Assembly (NCBI GenBank): GCA_029975475.1
Contig: JARKPB010000008.1
Location: 310,001 to 374,000 of the forward strand
DNA length: 64,000 nucleotides
Reading direction: 5' to 3'
Origin: Anaerolineaceae bacterium
GTDB taxonomy: Bacteria; Chloroflexota; Anaerolineae; Anaerolineales; Anaerolineaceae
Shown: piece by piece, positions 2,246 through 64,000 of the stretch
How the letters are laid out: each line of letters begins with the position of its first letter
Numbering within the stretch: the first letter of the stretch is position 1
Translations under genes and position numbers: made by a program
Notes under the pieces: generated by a model
What the model was told of the DNA's origin: nothing
The model's input: only the letters and a program-made list of their open reading frames with translations
The model's database searches: none

Positions 2246-4496
2246 CGCTTTGATGGTCGTGTTTCGCGTCTAAGAGAGGGGAATAATTGGTGCTCAATCC
2301 CTGCAGGGTCGCGTTGACCAGTTCCACGATCTCGCCGCGGCTGAAGGGCCGCTGGATATCCAGGTTGAAGCGGGAATATCCGCTTTCAGGCAGGGTGGGC
2401 GGTAAATCAAAAGCGGAAATGATCACAACCGGGATTTGTTTTAAGCGGCTGTCGCGCTGGATTTGGTTCAGCAAGGTTAAGCCGTTAATATCTCCCAGAT
2501 CCAGATCCAGCAGGATCGCGTCAATTCGCGCGGATTTTAACAGATTCACCGCTTCCAGCCCGCTTTGCGCGGTGAGGAAATTAAGTTCGCGGTGCCCGAG
2601 TCCGTTTCTGTTCGGGCTGCCGCTGGCCTGAAGCGCCTGCATCACAAAGCGCGCCATCGCCGGGTCATCATCCACCACCAGGATGTTTTCCACTTCCCGC
2701 CCCAGGCGTTTCATCACCTCTTCCAGCCTCTCGCGGGTGACCGGTTTGACCAGATATTCAAGCACCCCTTCCGGTAAAGACTGTCCCCCGCCGCTGCGGT
2801 CGGGCAGCGGAAGGGTCAGGATGGGCAGAATATAAGGCGGCCTGGCCATAAAACTGCGCACCGCTTCGAGATCAGCCAGGGCCGCGTCCACAATGACCGC
2901 GCGCGGATACATCTGGCAGACCGTGGTGGCCAGTTTATCAGGTTCGGTCAGGATGGTCAGGTTAAACTGCCTGACCTGCTCCGAAAAAAAAGACGCGGCC
3001 AGCGGATCGCGGGCGAGAATGAGCAGCAGCGGGTATTTTTCTTCCAGGGCTGGCAGGTTTGGGATCTCGCCGGAATCACGGGAGACGACCCGCACCTCAT
3101 CCAGCGCCTGATGGAACGGCAGGGTGAAATAAAAGGTGGAACCCTGGCCCAATTTGGAGGAGACGCCTATTTCTCCGCCGTGCAGCTCGATAAAACGGCG
3201 GGCGATGGAAAGGCCCAGACCGGTGCCTTCAGCCCGCTGCCAGTTGGGCTGACCGGCCTGCCGGAATTCCGTGAACACTTTCGCGGCGTCTTCTTCCGAT
3301 ATCCCTGTGCCGGTGTCAATCACTTCAATTAGTGCCATTTCTTCGTTCTTGCGCCTGGCTCTCAGGGTAATCCCGCCGCGGCTGGTGAAGCGCAGGGCAT
3401 TGGTCACCAGGTTGAGCAGCACCTGCCGCACACGGGTGCGATCTACAAATAAAGCCGGCAGCCCTTCCTCAACCTCCACAGCCATTTTCAATCCCTTTTT
3501 TTCCACTGTGGCGCGGTTCATGATCTCAATTTCATTAAAAACTTCTTGAACGGTCAACTTTTCGCGGTAGAGTTCCATCTGCCGGGCGTCAATTTTCCCC
3601 ATCGCCAGCACGTCGTTAATCAGGCTCATCAAATGGGTGCTGGAATTGTAAATCTCGCGAATATCTTCATACAAACCTTTTGGCCAGCGCTTCAATTCCG
3701 CGTAGGTTTCGGGCGAATTCACCATCAGATCTGAAAAACCAATAATAAAGTTTAACGGACTGCGCAGTTCGTGGCTGATGGCGAGGGCAAAGCGATCCCG
3801 TTCGATCCGCGCCTCTTCCGCCTGTGTGCGGGCATATTCCAGCATGCGGTTAAGCCGGTCGAGCTGGTAATTGGCTTTATTGACTTCATTTAGAAGTTTG
3901 CTGATTTCCGCGCGGTGTTCGCGCACCTCTTCAAGCCGCTGAACCGCTTCGCGGTAGTGGTATGAAGCCGCATCCATCGACGAAATCAGGTTATCCGATA
4001 ATCCCCATCCCAGAATGGTAGCTGCCAGGGTGAGTAAGACCAGATAAATGGGGTAATCCGGCGGGAGGGCGGGCAGCCAGGGAAGATTTGCCCAGCCAAG
4101 GAACAGGGCAATCAGGGCGGCGTTTAGCAGGAAGGTTCCCCGCAGCCCGACCATCACCTCGGCAAACATGGGCAGCAAGGCGCTTAACAGCAGGATCTCG
4201 GGGCGCTGATACAGATAGTAACCCAGCAGGATGGCTGCCAACAGGCACAGATACCAGATCACCACGCTGGTAAAGAAAAAGCGCCTCATCACCACCAGGC
4301 TGACCGCCGTGGCAGCCAGCATGATCAGGGTAATAATCCACAGGCTCGGGCTAAAAGTTCGCGGCCACCCCAGAGTAACGATGATATGGAAGCAGAAGTA
4401 GGTGAACAGGGTGGTTAAGATGACCCTGCGGGATGTGTTTTGATAAAACTCCTGATCCGCGCTGTTCCTGCGCAGCCATTTTCGGGCGGTTTGCAT
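2211..4496 (-). CDS. Membrane hybrid sensor histidine kinase with two receiver domains
   Basis: Sensor kinase of 761 residues. Residues about 23-165 hold roughly six membrane helices with little periplasmic sequence, so sensing is probably within or near the membrane. A coiled coil (175-235) leads to a HisKA domain with His242 in ISHELRSPL. The HATPase domain follows with an N box (VLLNLVTNALRF, about 359-370), DTGTGI (394-399) and GTGLGLSIA (about 424). The first receiver (about 488-600) is probably a pseudo-receiver because its acidic pair is missing. The second (604-735) has VVDDD and a probable acceptor Asp664 in LLDLDLGD, but the usual C-terminal Lys is Arg (QRPF). It is convergent with the regulator at 1028. 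A TAACAT element lies 6 nt before the ATG, hinting at a leaderless mRNA. Confidence 0.93.
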   Translation of the reverse strand: MQTARKWLRRNSADQEFYQNTSRRVILTTLFTYFCFHIIVTLGWPRTFSPSLWIITLIMLAATAVSLVVMRRFFFTSVVIWYLCLLAAILLGYYLYQRPEILLLSALLPMFAEVMVGLRGTFLLNAALIALFLGWANLPWLPALPPDYPIYLVLLTLAATILGWGLSDNLISSMDAASYHYREAVQRLEEVREHRAEISKLLNEVNKANYQLDRLNRMLEYARTQAEEARIERDRFALAISHELRSPLNFIIGFSDLMVNSPETYAELKRWPKGLYEDIREIYNSSTHLMSLINDVLAMGKIDARQMELYREKLTVQEVFNEIEIMNRATVEKKGLKMAVEVEEGLPALFVDRTRVRQVLLNLVTNALRFTSRGGITLRARRKNEEMALIEVIDTGTGISEEDAAKVFTEFRQAGQPNWQRAEGTGLGLSIARRFIELHGGEIGVSSKLGQGSTFYFTLPFHQALDEVRVVSRDSGEIPNLPALEEKYPLLLILARDPLAASFFSEQVRQFNLTILTEPDKLATTVCQMYPRAVIVDAALADLEAVRSFMARPPYILPILTLPLPDRSGGGQSLPEGVLEYLVKPVTRERLEEVMKRLGREVENILVVDDDPAMARFVMQALQASGSPNRNGLGHRELNFLTAQSGLEAVNLLKSARIDAILLDLDLGDINGLTLLNQIQRDSRLKQIPVVIISAFDLPPTLPESGYSRFNLDIQRPFSRGEIVELVNATLQGLSTNYSPLLDAKHDHQSVNEPQPDDPAA

Positions 4497-59756: not shown

Positions 59757-60179
59757 ATGCCGACGAATATATCCTCAGATTGGGCTCCAAAAGCGGCCAG
59801 TTTTTTTGCGCTTATCGGACAGCCGGTTCGGCTGCAACTGCTGGCGATCATGGCCGCGCAGGAGGCCTGTGTGTGTCATTTTGAAGCCGTGCTCGGTTTG
59901 CGGCAGGCGGTGATATCCCAGCACCTGATGCTGCTGCGCCGGGCGGGATTGGTAAAAACCCGCCGTGACGGCCGAAACGTTTTTTACCAGCTGGTCAACC
60001 CGGACCTGATCCCCTGGATCAAATCCGCGCTTGTCCTCAGCGGCGAATCGGAAGAGATGCTTCAGCCGCTGGGAAAACGGCCGGTTGAAGGTTGCCCCTG
60101 CTCGCAATGTAATCCCGGTGTGCCCGAATTTTCCTGCCAGGGATTGCATCCCAAACCATCATCCTCTAATCCCCGATAA
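59757..60179 (+). CDS. arsR: ArsR/SmtB-family metalloregulator
   Basis: 140-residue winged-helix repressor. The metal-sensing ELCVC-type box reads [31 protein letters not shown] (Cys38 and Cys40), the arrangement of As(III)-responsive ArsR proteins. The C-terminus adds a cysteine-rich tail (CPCSQC and a further Cys in EFSCQG) that could provide extra thiolate ligands. It lies directly before the acr3 arsenite exporter, so it probably represses both genes until arsenite binds. The transcript appears leaderless. Confidence 0.92.
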
Positions 60180-60195
60180 AAATATGGAGAACAAA

Positions 60196-61284
60196 ATGGC
60201 TGAACAAAGCGTCACCCGAAAACTGTCCTTCCTTGACCGCTACCTTACGGTGTGGATATTTTTAGCGATGGCGGTCGGTGTGGGGATCGGCTACCTGATT
60301 CCCGACAGCGTGGCCGCTTTCAATCAGGCGGTCTCGGTGGACACAACCAACATCCCGATCGCCATTGGCCTCATATTAATGATGTATCCGCCGCTGGCAA
60401 AGGTGCATTATGATGAACTCGGGAAAGTATTTCGCAATGTGAAAGTGCTGGGTCTTTCGCTGCTGCAAAACTGGATCATCGGCCCGGTGTTCATGTTCGG
60501 CCTGGCGGTGATCTTCCTGCGCAATTACCCTGAATATATGGCCGGTTTGATCATGATCGGCCTCGCCCGCTGTATCGCCATGGTGATAGTCTGGAACGAA
60601 CTGGCAAAAGGCGACACCGATTACGCTGCCGGTCTGGTCGCATTTAATTCCATCTTCCAGGTGCTGTTTTTTAGCGTTTATGCGTATGTATTTATCACTG
60701 TGCTGCCAGGGTGGCTTGGGCTGCAAAGTCAGGTGGTTAACGTCAAGATCGGGGATATTGCCGAATCGGTTTTCATCTACCTCGGGATCCCGTTCATCGC
60801 CGGTTTCATCACCAATCGGGTTTTAACCCGGGTAAAAGGAAAAGACTGGTATTACCGCGTCTTTATCCCCAAAATCAGCCCGATCACGCTGATTGCCTTG
60901 CTTTTTACCATCCTGGTCATGTTCTCATTGAAAGGCAATTTAATCGTCAGCATTCCCCTGGATGTTGTCCGCGTTGCCATCCCGCTGTTGATCTATTTTG
61001 TCGGTATGTTTTTGGTCAGTTTCCTGCTGGGCAGGCTGGTCGGCGCCAATTACAAACAAAACACCACCCTGTCCTTTACTGCGGCGAGCAACAATTTTGA
61101 ACTCGCCATCGCGGTTGCAGTGGCCGTTTTTGGCCTGAGTTCCGGTCAGGCATTCGCCGCGGTGATTGGTCCGCTGGTTGAAGTTCCGGTGATGATTGGC
61201 CTGGTGAATGTGGCCTTCTGGCTCCAGAAACGTTTTTATAAAGACCAGCTGGAACAGGGAATTCCGAAGGCGGAAATCTGTTAG
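60196..61284 (+). CDS. acr3: Arsenite efflux transporter of the ACR3 family
   Basis: Ten-helix membrane exporter of 362 residues that expels arsenite, and sometimes antimonite. Family blocks are [57 protein letters not shown] with the conserved Cys, and [23 protein letters not shown] near the end. The start is the ATG at 60196 with GGAGA 6 nt upstream; the ATG at 60184 is an alternative. It follows arsR by 17 nt, forming an arsenic-resistance operon without arsenate reductase. A terminator follows. Confidence 0.97.
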
Positions 61285-61346: not shown

Positions 61347-61375
61347 TTGACTTCATAAAATATTGGTAATATAAT
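61347..61375 (+). promoter_or_regulatory. Strong sigma70-type promoter of the osmC-like gene
   Basis: TTGACT (61347-61352), 17 nt, TATAAT (61370-61375). About 40 nt of AT-rich leader with AAAAGGAG precede the ATG at 61423. Confidence 0.75.
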
Positions 61376-61422
61376 CCTAGCAATGGATATAAATACTAAT
61401 ATAATAGGAAAAGGAGTTTATT

Positions 61423-61857
61423 ATGGCTGTAAAAACTGTACAGGTTGAAGCCACTCAGCTGGATGGTTTCAAGATCGAAGCTCGTTCTCGACAGCATGTC
61501 AGTATTGTGGATCAGACCCAGGCGGGCGGCGGGATGGATGCCGGCCCTTCGCCGCTGGAATATTTGTTTGTGTCCCTGGCTGGCTGCATCATCACGATCG
61601 GTCATATTATTGCCAAGCAGCGCCGGCTGCCAGTCCGCAATATTTCGGTAAAGGTAGAAGGCGAGCTGGATACCGATGTGCTGATGGGTAAAAGTACCGC
61701 GGTTCGTCCTGGTTTTACTGCCATCCGCGTCCACACAAAGATTGATGCGGATATGACGCAGGAGGAAAAAGAAGCCTATCTTAAAGAAATTGACGCGCGC
61801 TGCCCGATCTCGGATAATATCCACAACCTTTCTCCGATTGAGTTTGTGGTGGAATAA
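61423..61857 (+). CDS. OsmC-family protein
   Basis: Cytosolic protein of 144 residues in the OsmC/Ohr superfamily. The two conserved cysteines are Cys55 in SLAGCIITIG and Cys127 in DARCPISDNI; family members with both reduce organic hydroperoxides. The sequence is closer to the general OsmC group than to Ohr, so peroxidase activity is likely but not certain. AAGGAG precedes the ATG and a strong promoter lies upstream. The HTH-cupin-NifX gene follows 18 nt later and may be co-transcribed. Confidence 0.92.
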   Translation: MAVKTVQVEATQLDGFKIEARSRQHVSIVDQTQAGGGMDAGPSPLEYLFVSLAGCIITIGHIIAKQRRLPVRNISVKVEGELDTDVLMGKSTAVRPGFTAIRVHTKIDADMTQEEKEAYLKEIDARCPISDNIHNLSPIEFVVE

Positions 61858-61875: not shown

Positions 61876-62910
61876 ATGGTAAAAACTGCGCCGGTGGATC
61901 AGCAGGATCTGTCGATCTCGGTGGGGCAAAGGCTGCGGGAGATACGCACCCGGCTTCGCATTCCTTTACGCGAACTCGCGGACGCCTGCGGTTTAAATAT
62001 CAACACCCTCAGTTTGATCGAAAACGAGCGAACTTCACCTTCGGTCAGCACGCTTCAGCAAATCGCCGCGGCACTGGATGTGCCGGTGACCGCGTTTTTT
62101 GAAACGGGCAAAATTGCCCGGCCAGTTGTAGCCCAGCAGGCGCAATCGCGGTCTGAACGCTGGATTGGGACCACGCAGATGTTCAACCTGACGGAAAATT
62201 TGTCGGGCGGCAGTCTGCAGGCTTTTGTCGCGCGGTTGAAACCAGGCATGGGCAGCGGGGACCGAATGATCGTTCACACCGGTTATGAGTTGGTTTACTG
62301 CCTGAGCGGAAAAATCCGTTACCAGATACAGGATGAAGCATACATCCTGACCGCGGGTGATTCGCTCGCCTTTGAAGCGCGCCTGCCGCATTGCTGGGAA
62401 AACGTTGGAAGGGAAGATACGGAAGTGATCCTGGTATTTTCTTCCATCGACCAGCGGGAAAACACCGGCTGCGAGCACTTTGCGCCAGGTATTTTGAAAA
62501 AGGAGACAAAAATGAAAATCGCGATCATCACGGATGATGGCAAAACTATCAGCCAGCATTTCGGCCGTGCCCAGCATTATCTGATTATCACCCTGGAAGA
62601 TGGTAAAGAGGTATCCCGGGAAATGAAAGATAAACTTGGCCACGGTCAGTTTCATGGAGAACATGAGGATCATGAACAGCACGGCGGGGCTCACGGTCAC
62701 GATGGCGCCGCTCACAACAAACATATCCAGATGGCAGAAGCGATCAAGGATTGCAGTCTGCTGATTTGCGGCGGTATGGGCATGGGGGCTTATGAAAGTA
62801 TGCGCCGGCTAAATATCCAGCCGTTGGTCACGGATCTTCGCACGGTGGATGAAGCTGTGCAAGCTTTTCTGGATGGCAAATTGATCGATCATACCGAACG
62901 GTTACACTAA
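61876..62910 (+). CDS. HTH-XRE/cupin regulator fused to a NifX/NifB-like domain
   Basis: 344-residue composite protein. Residues about 15-75 are an XRE-type HTH (LREIRTRLRIPLRELADACGLNINTLSLIENER). Residues about 95-195 are a cupin sensor domain (GSGDRMIVHTGYELVYCLSGKI). Residues 213-335 match the dinitrogenase iron-molybdenum cofactor (NifX/NifB C-terminal) fold, beginning MKIAIITDDGKTISQHFGRAQHYLI with a His-rich stretch (about 256-282) and CSLLICGGMGMGAYESM. The junction GILKKETK-MKIAI contains an intact AAAGGAG 7 nt before the in-frame ATG at 62512. The C-terminal domain may thus also be made alone, or the gene may derive from two. xdhC follows, which fits a molybdenum link. Confidence 0.88.
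   Translation: MVKTAPVDQQDLSISVGQRLREIRTRLRIPLRELADACGLNINTLSLIENERTSPSVSTLQQIAAALDVPVTAFFETGKIARPVVAQQAQSRSERWIGTTQMFNLTENLSGGSLQAFVARLKPGMGSGDRMIVHTGYELVYCLSGKIRYQIQDEAYILTAGDSLAFEARLPHCWENVGREDTEVILVFSSIDQRENTGCEHFAPGILKKETKMKIAIITDDGKTISQHFGRAQHYLIITLEDGKEVSREMKDKLGHGQFHGEHEDHEQHGGAHGHDGAAHNKHIQMAEAIKDCSLLICGGMGMGAYESMRRLNIQPLVTDLRTVDEAVQAFLDGKLIDHTERLH
62505..62514 (+). promoter_or_regulatory. Internal ribosome binding site and start of the NifX-like domain
   Basis: AAAGGAG lies immediately upstream of ATG 62512-62514, which would start a 132-residue protein equal to a free NifX/NifB-type domain. The frame remains open across the junction, so both the fused and the separate product are possible. 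Confidence 0.5.
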
Positions 62911-62986: not shown

Positions 62987-64000
62987 ATGATTACATTGAT
63001 TAATGAAATTTCCGAGTTAATTAAGAAGGGCGATCCATTTTCCCTGGCAACGATTATCCGCCGCAATGGTTCAGCCCCCCGTTCTACCGGCGCGAAAATG
63101 CTGGTGCGTTCAGACGGCAGCATTGCCGGCACGATCGGCGGCGGGGCATTGGAAGCGCAGGTTATTCGTATGGCAGTTGAAGCCCTCGCCAGCCAGCAAT
63201 CTTCGGTACAATCCTTTTCTTTTAGCGGCGTTGATGCGGCTTCGATGGATGCGATTTGCGGTGGTCAGGTAGATGTCCTGATCGAAACCGTCCCGGCGCA
63301 ATCGGAAGACCGGCAGGCGGTCTTCGCCGCTTTGAAACACGCCGTTGAAACTCACCGCAGCGCCTGGCTGCTGACCACCTATAACCCGTCAGATCGAAAA
63401 ACCAGCCACGCGGTCGTCCTTCAGGACGGCCAGGTGGTTGGATCGGCTCCGCAGGAGGTGGATATTTCCCTGGTCCAGGCACAACGCCTGCCGCATTTAT
63501 TGTTGAGCGTTCGCGGGGTCTTAACTCTGATCGAGCCGGCGAATATCAGCGGGTCGGTGTTTATCTTTGGCGCCGGACATGTCTCGCAAAGTTTAGCCCA
63601 GTTTACCAAAGCGGTGGGTTTCTGGACGATGGTGCTGGACGACCGCTCGGAATTTGCCAACCGCGAGCGCTTTCCGGATGCGGATGAGATCCGGGTTCTG
63701 TCGGATATGCAAGATATCAGCAGCGTTCCGATTGATGAAGACAGTTATGTTGTTATTGTCACCCGCGGCCATTTAGACGATCTGGTCGTGCTGGCACAGG
63801 TCTTAAGAACTCCGGCTGCTTATATTGGTATGATTGGCAGCCGCAGAAAAGTCGCCTTAATTTTTGATGACCTGCGAAAGCGCGGTTTTAGTGAAGAAGC
63901 GCTGCAACGCGTGCGCGCGCCTATTGGCCTTTCTATTGCGGCGGAAACACCCGAAGAGATCGGGATCAGTATCACTGCCCAATTGATCCAGGAAAGGGCA
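62987..64000 (+). CDS. xdhC: XdhC/CoxI-family maturation factor (C-terminus beyond window)
   Basis: Partial gene of at least 338 residues, running off the right edge. The N-terminal domain has the diagnostic RRNGSAPRSTGAKMLV and GTIGGGALEAQVI motifs, plus DAICGGQVDVLIE. The C-terminal Rossmann-type XdhC domain starts near residue 190 with VFIFGAGHVSQSLAQF, followed by VIVTRGHLDDLVVL and IGMIGSRRKVALIF. XdhC proteins insert or sulfurate the molybdenum cofactor in xanthine-dehydrogenase-type enzymes. The promoter region upstream carries GGAGTCAT before the ATG. The enzyme it serves is not in the window. Confidence 0.93.
   Translation, partial: MITLINEISELIKKGDPFSLATIIRRNGSAPRSTGAKMLVRSDGSIAGTIGGGALEAQVIRMAVEALASQQSSVQSFSFSGVDAASMDAICGGQVDVLIETVPAQSEDRQAVFAALKHAVETHRSAWLLTTYNPSDRKTSHAVVLQDGQVVGSAPQEVDISLVQAQRLPHLLLSVRGVLTLIEPANISGSVFIFGAGHVSQSLAQFTKAVGFWTMVLDDRSEFANRERFPDADEIRVLSDMQDISSVPIDEDSYVVIVTRGHLDDLVVLAQVLRTPAAYIGMIGSRRKVALIFDDLRKRGFSEEALQRVRAPIGLSIAAETPEEIGISITAQLIQERA

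Follow-up and report, generated by a model that had tools for sequence, protein, structure and literature searches.

The question raised by this locus is whether one gene can encode a DNA-binding regulator and, from within the same reading frame, a separate metal-cofactor protein. The window (the whole 64-kb stretch of DNA that was analysed) contains an ORF on the plus strand (61876-62910, ATG to TAA) that encodes 344 aa and has no internal stops. The encoded domains are, in order, an XRE-type helix-turn-helix (HTH), a cupin and a Nitro_FeMo-Co (NifX/ORP-like) domain, all scoring above the curated Pfam cut-offs, and the window genome has a single copy of this fusion gene. The original prediction held that an HTH-cupin regulator runs without a stop into a NifX-type domain with its own ribosome-binding site and ATG, that two genes had lost the stop between them, and that the one gene may have two products. 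The features of the locus are as follows.

61347..61375, plus strand: sigma-70-type promoter of the OsmC-fusion operon, TTGACT-N17-TATAAT (11/12 consensus matches, best in the region)
61353..61409 (61353-61368 plus, 61367-61382 plus, 61394-61409 minus): three degenerate copies of the candidate operator TACTATAATNTTRGTA, the sole matches in the window at up to 3 mismatches
61423..61857, plus strand: OsmC-like protein, first gene of a probable operon (Pfam OsmC, 2.6e-19)
61876..62910, plus strand: full-length XRE-HTH/cupin/NifX-like fusion, 344 aa (36 fused genomes overall)
61933..62091, plus strand: XRE-type HTH domain, residues 20-72 (Pfam HTH_3, 2.7e-11; helices in the model)
62227..62439, plus strand: cupin domain, residues 118-188 (Pfam Cupin_2, 5.3e-15; invariant H134, E138 and H172, HxxxE...H)
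62500..62505, plus strand: internal Shine-Dalgarno (SD) sequence AAGGAG, 6 nt before the in-frame ATG 62512-62514 (residue 213)
62512..62910, plus strand: NifX/ORP-like domain, predicted free 132-aa protein from ATG 62512 (residue 213) (Pfam Nitro_FeMo-Co, 2.6e-16)

The N-terminal part belongs to the XRE-cupin proteins, having an XRE HTH and a Cupin_2 domain (both above the Pfam cut-off) and the HTH-cupin regulator 1y9q as its best fold match. The top fold matches of the HTH-cupin model also include HppE, an Fe-dependent HTH-cupin enzyme, whereas the window protein is a predicted regulator. A search of solved structures with the HTH-cupin part gave no match at 1e-8. H134, E138 and H172 of the cupin are unchanged in all aligned fusions, and their HxxxE...H arrangement resembles the 2-His-1-Glu iron site of HppE. 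The Nitro_FeMo-Co (PF02579) match spans residues 221-332 and scores 60.1 against a gathering cut-off of 26.3, and a search of solved structures with this part gave weak matches to small NifB/NifX proteins and to the ORP protein 2wfb. The window protein scores below the cut-off of the PuuR equivalog NF007408 (74.5 bits; cut-off 211) and below those of the NCBIfam equivalogs for NifX, NifB and MrpORP (29.8, 29.9 and 35.8 bits; cut-offs 112, 343.65 and 450). H228, H283 and C293 of the NifX-type domain are fixed in the 36 fused and 57 other relatives, which include Ignavibacteria and Bacteroidetes, while H256 and H273 are kept in nearly all of them. The His-rich loop described earlier in this domain does exist, but beyond a few fixed His residues it is variable, and it is modelled with low confidence; the predicted structure of the full-length fusion has a pTM of 0.40.

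The junction between regulator and NifX-type domain reads TTG AAA AAG GAG ACA AAA ATG AAA ATC and is open in frame, and ATG 62512 encodes the first residue of the domain, just as had been predicted. A matching anti-SD is present in the window genome, since its 16S rRNA terminates in GGATCACCTCCTTTC, and AAGGAG at 62500-62505 is therefore a good ribosome-binding site here. The open fusion occurs in 36 genomes of about 21 genera (the window genome, 33 others of its family and 2 of the sister family), with the fused relatives 48-62% identical to the window protein. Among 147 family genomes, 34 (window genome included) were checked base by base at the junction and proved to be open there.

The codons of the junction suggest strong selection on the internal SD, which makes it probable that the gene has two products, as first proposed. 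The comparison of codon usage drew on a codon alignment of the first 17 fusions (15 genera with Glu at the site). Where Glu is present it is always encoded by GAG (15/15; gene background 33%) and the site Lys is always encoded by AAG (14/14; background 39%). Only 3 of 206 conserved columns are fully codon-uniform, and the Lys and Glu of the SD are two of those three; AAG GAG are the junction codons in 26/34 fusions. Codons were also resampled synonymously, from those that the same gene uses (300 draws). Anti-SD pairing of the 34 fusions averages -8.37 kcal/mol compared with -3.81 kcal/mol after resampling (sd 0.43, minimum -4.90 of 300), and sites at or below -6 kcal/mol number 32/34 compared with 8 on average and at most 16 after synonymous resampling; the fusions compared are kin, not independent draws, so the codon and pairing figures overstate the effect and are not strict probabilities. 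The SD is weaker in two of the 34 (AAGGAT in G036 and AAGGAA in G377). The start Met of the NifX-type domain is present in 36/36 fusions, and none of the other conserved Met codons of the fusion protein is preceded by a comparable SD.

The internal SD is stronger than that of the first start in 13/16 genes (the main start codons are predictions) and in the fusions exceeds what is typical for long ORFs of the window (median -5.05); the window gene itself has about equal values for the internal and the first start (-9.3 and -8.9). RNA around the internal start is slightly less structured than in synonymous versions (mean z +0.67), which gives slight support to internal initiation. In G029 the motif AAAGGAG is shifted by one base and out of frame (the peptide reads K-GAF instead of KE), further fusions have CAGGAG or, in another register, AGGAGG at the junction, and the SD is likewise kept in G445. 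Because these genes keep an SD while register or amino acids differ, the constraint acts on the DNA rather than on the peptide. The gene thus combines an open frame with an internal SD and start that are conserved beyond the constraint on the protein, as in-frame dual coding entails. The finding that junction indels are all multiples of three was rejected as evidence for the long protein since it is circular, the fusions being defined by the open frame.

Both gene structures are found among the relatives, and the close relatives do not all carry a stop. In genomes from elsewhere in the class (G195, G098 and G046), HTH-cupin and NifX are encoded by neighbouring but distinct genes, with a stop, about 30 nt, AGGAG or GAGGA, and ATG at the junction. 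These two-gene relatives agree with the proposed loss of a stop, as do two genomes in which the stop lies inside the SD: G008 has CCA TAG GAG AAT ATG ATG, where the stop forms part of the SD, and G443 has GAA TAA GGA GTA ACC ATG, where it falls within TAAGGAG. A one-stop split is harmless only if the internal start functions. Other split genes are in differing frames (G446, G376 and the second copy of G452). The SD used by the split forms is the same one as in the fusions. A tree of 45 regulator-NifX pairs requires five changes between the fused and split states, at least three of which are forced by well-supported branches, although their directions are not certain. Splits are nested among fusions in this tree: G397 and G398 pair with fused G029, and G008 and G446 lie inside a mostly fused group. 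In G003 the HTH-cupin is lost except for its last ~40 residues, and the NifX frame is intact behind AAGGAG and ATG. The G003 remnant (L066, about 2770-3300 of the reversed locus) lacks an HTH part and sits behind an unrelated probable lipoprotein gene.

These states bear on two other explanations of the open frame. An error of sequencing or assembly could have deleted a stop, since the assemblies are drafts and some relatives (G008 and G443) do have the stop, but 36 genomes are open, some of them in very few contigs (2 each in G029 and G395), which rules out this explanation and leaves it a negligible probability. Alternatively, only the full-length fusion might be made, with the SD and ATG representing a fossil of the two-gene form or an SD-like pause that aids domain folding. 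The KKE-MK peptide could indeed be under mild selection; however, a fossil would not persist at synonymous positions across proteins this divergent, nor would it explain an SD kept in G029, G445 and the CAG-GAG variants despite a change of amino acid or register. Where the NifX part is gone (G034), the SD has decayed to AAGGAA and the ATG to CTA, and the split forms together with the G003 remnant imply that the start is in use. Production of the full-length protein alone is thus rather improbable, and the conserved internal ribosome-binding site very probably also yields the NifX-like domain as a separate small protein.

The promoter region carries a further shared element. The upstream regions have GTACTATAATNTTRGTA in common, an inverted repeat (TACTA N6 TRGTA) around the -10 box, and the candidate operator is found within 2 mismatches before 38/45 loci, two-gene outgroups included. 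An exact search of the 147 genomes gave 29 distinct sites compared with 4 matches to a reversed control. HTH-cupin genes, whether fused or single and whether or not OsmC is present, follow 24 of the 29, and single sites precede a lone nifX (G002), a separated NifX2-MinD operon (G001) and a PNPOx gene (G002) of the type found after the fusion in other genomes. Another lone nifX (G394) also has a perfect operator core, at -118. In the window, 3 matches at up to 3 mismatches are found, all within 61353-61409, where 0.39 are expected. These copies have 2-3 mismatches, a level at which the window genome (G000) has 5 matches compared with 8 for the control, so they are credible because of their position alone; relatives have copies with 0-2 mismatches at the same place. 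Two of the 29 exact sites have neither an HTH-cupin nor a NifX gene alongside (L142, G381:C87; L145, G036:C143), the latter being near a contig end, after a phosphate-type ABC transporter. At L140 (G010:C3:132288), a perfect 18-bp palindrome, GTACTATAATTATAGTAC, precedes an HTH-cupin gene that stands alone and is followed by an Mrp/NBP35-type gene.

From its conservation over the -10 box at the gene's own and related operons, we infer that the palindrome is a candidate operator of the XRE-cupin regulator, and its position makes a repressor plausible. The palindrome contains TATAAT, and TTG-type -35 boxes lie 16-17 nt upstream of this -10 in many genomes, so it could instead be merely a strong promoter element. 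This is unlikely, since the conserved stretch is an inverted repeat that covers 16-17 bp and reaches beyond the -10 in both directions, the palindrome is nearly exclusive to regulator and nifX-type genes genome-wide, and it follows the nifX and NifX2-MinD genes upon relocation.

Comparative sequence evidence supports the fusion, a selected internal start, and a shared operator with its targets. The favoured reading, which we hold to be likely, is that a one-frame gene encodes an XRE-cupin-NifX autoregulator plus a free NifX-like protein. Translation from 61876 would give an XRE-cupin DNA-binding regulator tethered to a NifX/ORP-like metal-cofactor domain, and translation from the embedded SD and ATG 62512 would give the free 132-aa domain, just as the two-gene form makes it from a nifX-like gene of its own. 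The regulator would bind the palindrome that overlaps the -10 box of the operon to which it belongs (OsmC-regulator-NifX); some relatives would also have it on the palindromes of separate nifX or NifX-MinD ATPase operons. It would shut these operons off according to the metal or Fe-S cofactor state, with the free NifX-like domain serving as the working carrier. That translation does start internally, that the regulator represses rather than activates and that it senses a cofactor are what we infer from the sequences compared. A possible but doubtful extension is that the free NifX outnumbers the tethered, identical domain, because the internal start is usually stronger, and that the two compete for the cofactor or a partner ATPase. 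Repression of the cofactor operon might then be set by how much carrier is loaded relative to empty, not by the metal itself.

XRE-cupin transcription factors (PuuR, PsdR, ErfA and PauR) repress neighbouring genes in Pseudomonas (PMC7901475). The window protein shares their XRE HTH and cupin, and its candidate operator is likewise at the gene's own promoter, but it has in addition an internal start and, as its third domain, a NifX/ORP-like one. The third domain is of the same Pfam family (Nitro_FeMo-Co) as NifX, ORP and MrpORP, the last of which is a fusion with an ORP domain (PMC6345978); in the window it is instead fused to a DNA-binding regulator and has the His/Cys set H228, H256, H283 and C293. 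MinD-ferredoxin ATPases next to relatives of the fusion resemble Orp3/Orp4, and these ATPases together with NifX recall the Desulfovibrio ORP complex (PMC6345978). Expression of the Desulfovibrio orp genes depends on a sigma-54 activator (PMC3897727), whereas the window system has an XRE-cupin protein. Known cases in which an in-frame internal start releases a C-terminal part are Cas11 (cas8/cas10), the short forms of CheA and CcmM, and SsaQ (PMC11899642, PMC11005335). The window gene would likewise give a long protein and its free C-terminal part, but it encodes a transcription factor, exists naturally in fused and split states, and has relatives with the stop inside the SD. A literature search, which took in few subscription journals, returned no description of an XRE-cupin-NifX fusion or its operator, and none of a comparable gene that occurs naturally both fused and split.

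The relatives form an evolutionary series from a bacterial gene pair to a dual-coding gene and back. As the stop can sit in the SD, a single base change may fuse or split the proteins with the downstream product retained. A gene caller that assigns one protein per frame would report the long protein and miss the second product. The locus also connects a regulator, a 16-bp candidate operator and a small regulon with a NifX/ORP-like metal-cofactor system that is poorly understood.

Two recurrent gene neighbourhoods bear on the signal. OsmC is directly upstream of the regulator in at least eight relatives as well (G020, G021, G011, G036, G008, G377, G445 and G452). In the other setting the downstream genes encode a second NifX, two MinD-type ATPases with 4Fe-4S domains, an FeS_assembly_P protein and a radical SAM or CGGC-domain protein, accompanied by a divergent PadR and a glycine-rich small protein. 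The signal had been proposed to be molybdenum or another metal; a molybdenum sensor would govern xdhC and molybdo-hydroxylase maturation. An aldehyde-oxidoreductase-type xdhC does directly follow the fusion in the window, an FmdE-family gene is nearby, and ORP proteins are reported to have Mo-Cu clusters, according to titles cited in PMC6345978. However, xdhC adjoins the fusion only in the window genome (about 20 neighbourhoods examined) and the recurrent partners are Fe-S/ORP-like, so the link was rejected as a general feature and a molybdenum sensor is very unlikely. Given these partners (OsmC, the second NifX, the MinD/ferredoxin ATPases, FeS_assembly_P and radical SAM proteins), a cofactor of Fe-S or another metal is no less probable than molybdenum.

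The XdhC in the window matches NF045664, the type for aldehyde-oxidoreductase maturation, with 390 bits and occupies 62987-64000 and beyond (L063 5943-7028); its start is probably ATG 62987, not GTG 62942. Directly upstream of the OsmC-fusion promoter, an ArsR-type regulator and then an ACR3 arsenite efflux gene form an arsenic-resistance pair (59757-61284). Just beyond the window, on the opposite strand (L063 7121-10539), are genes for a TauE-type transporter, the FmdE-family protein, a large permease, a small thioredoxin-like protein and a second ArsR, a neighbourhood of the metal/metalloid type.
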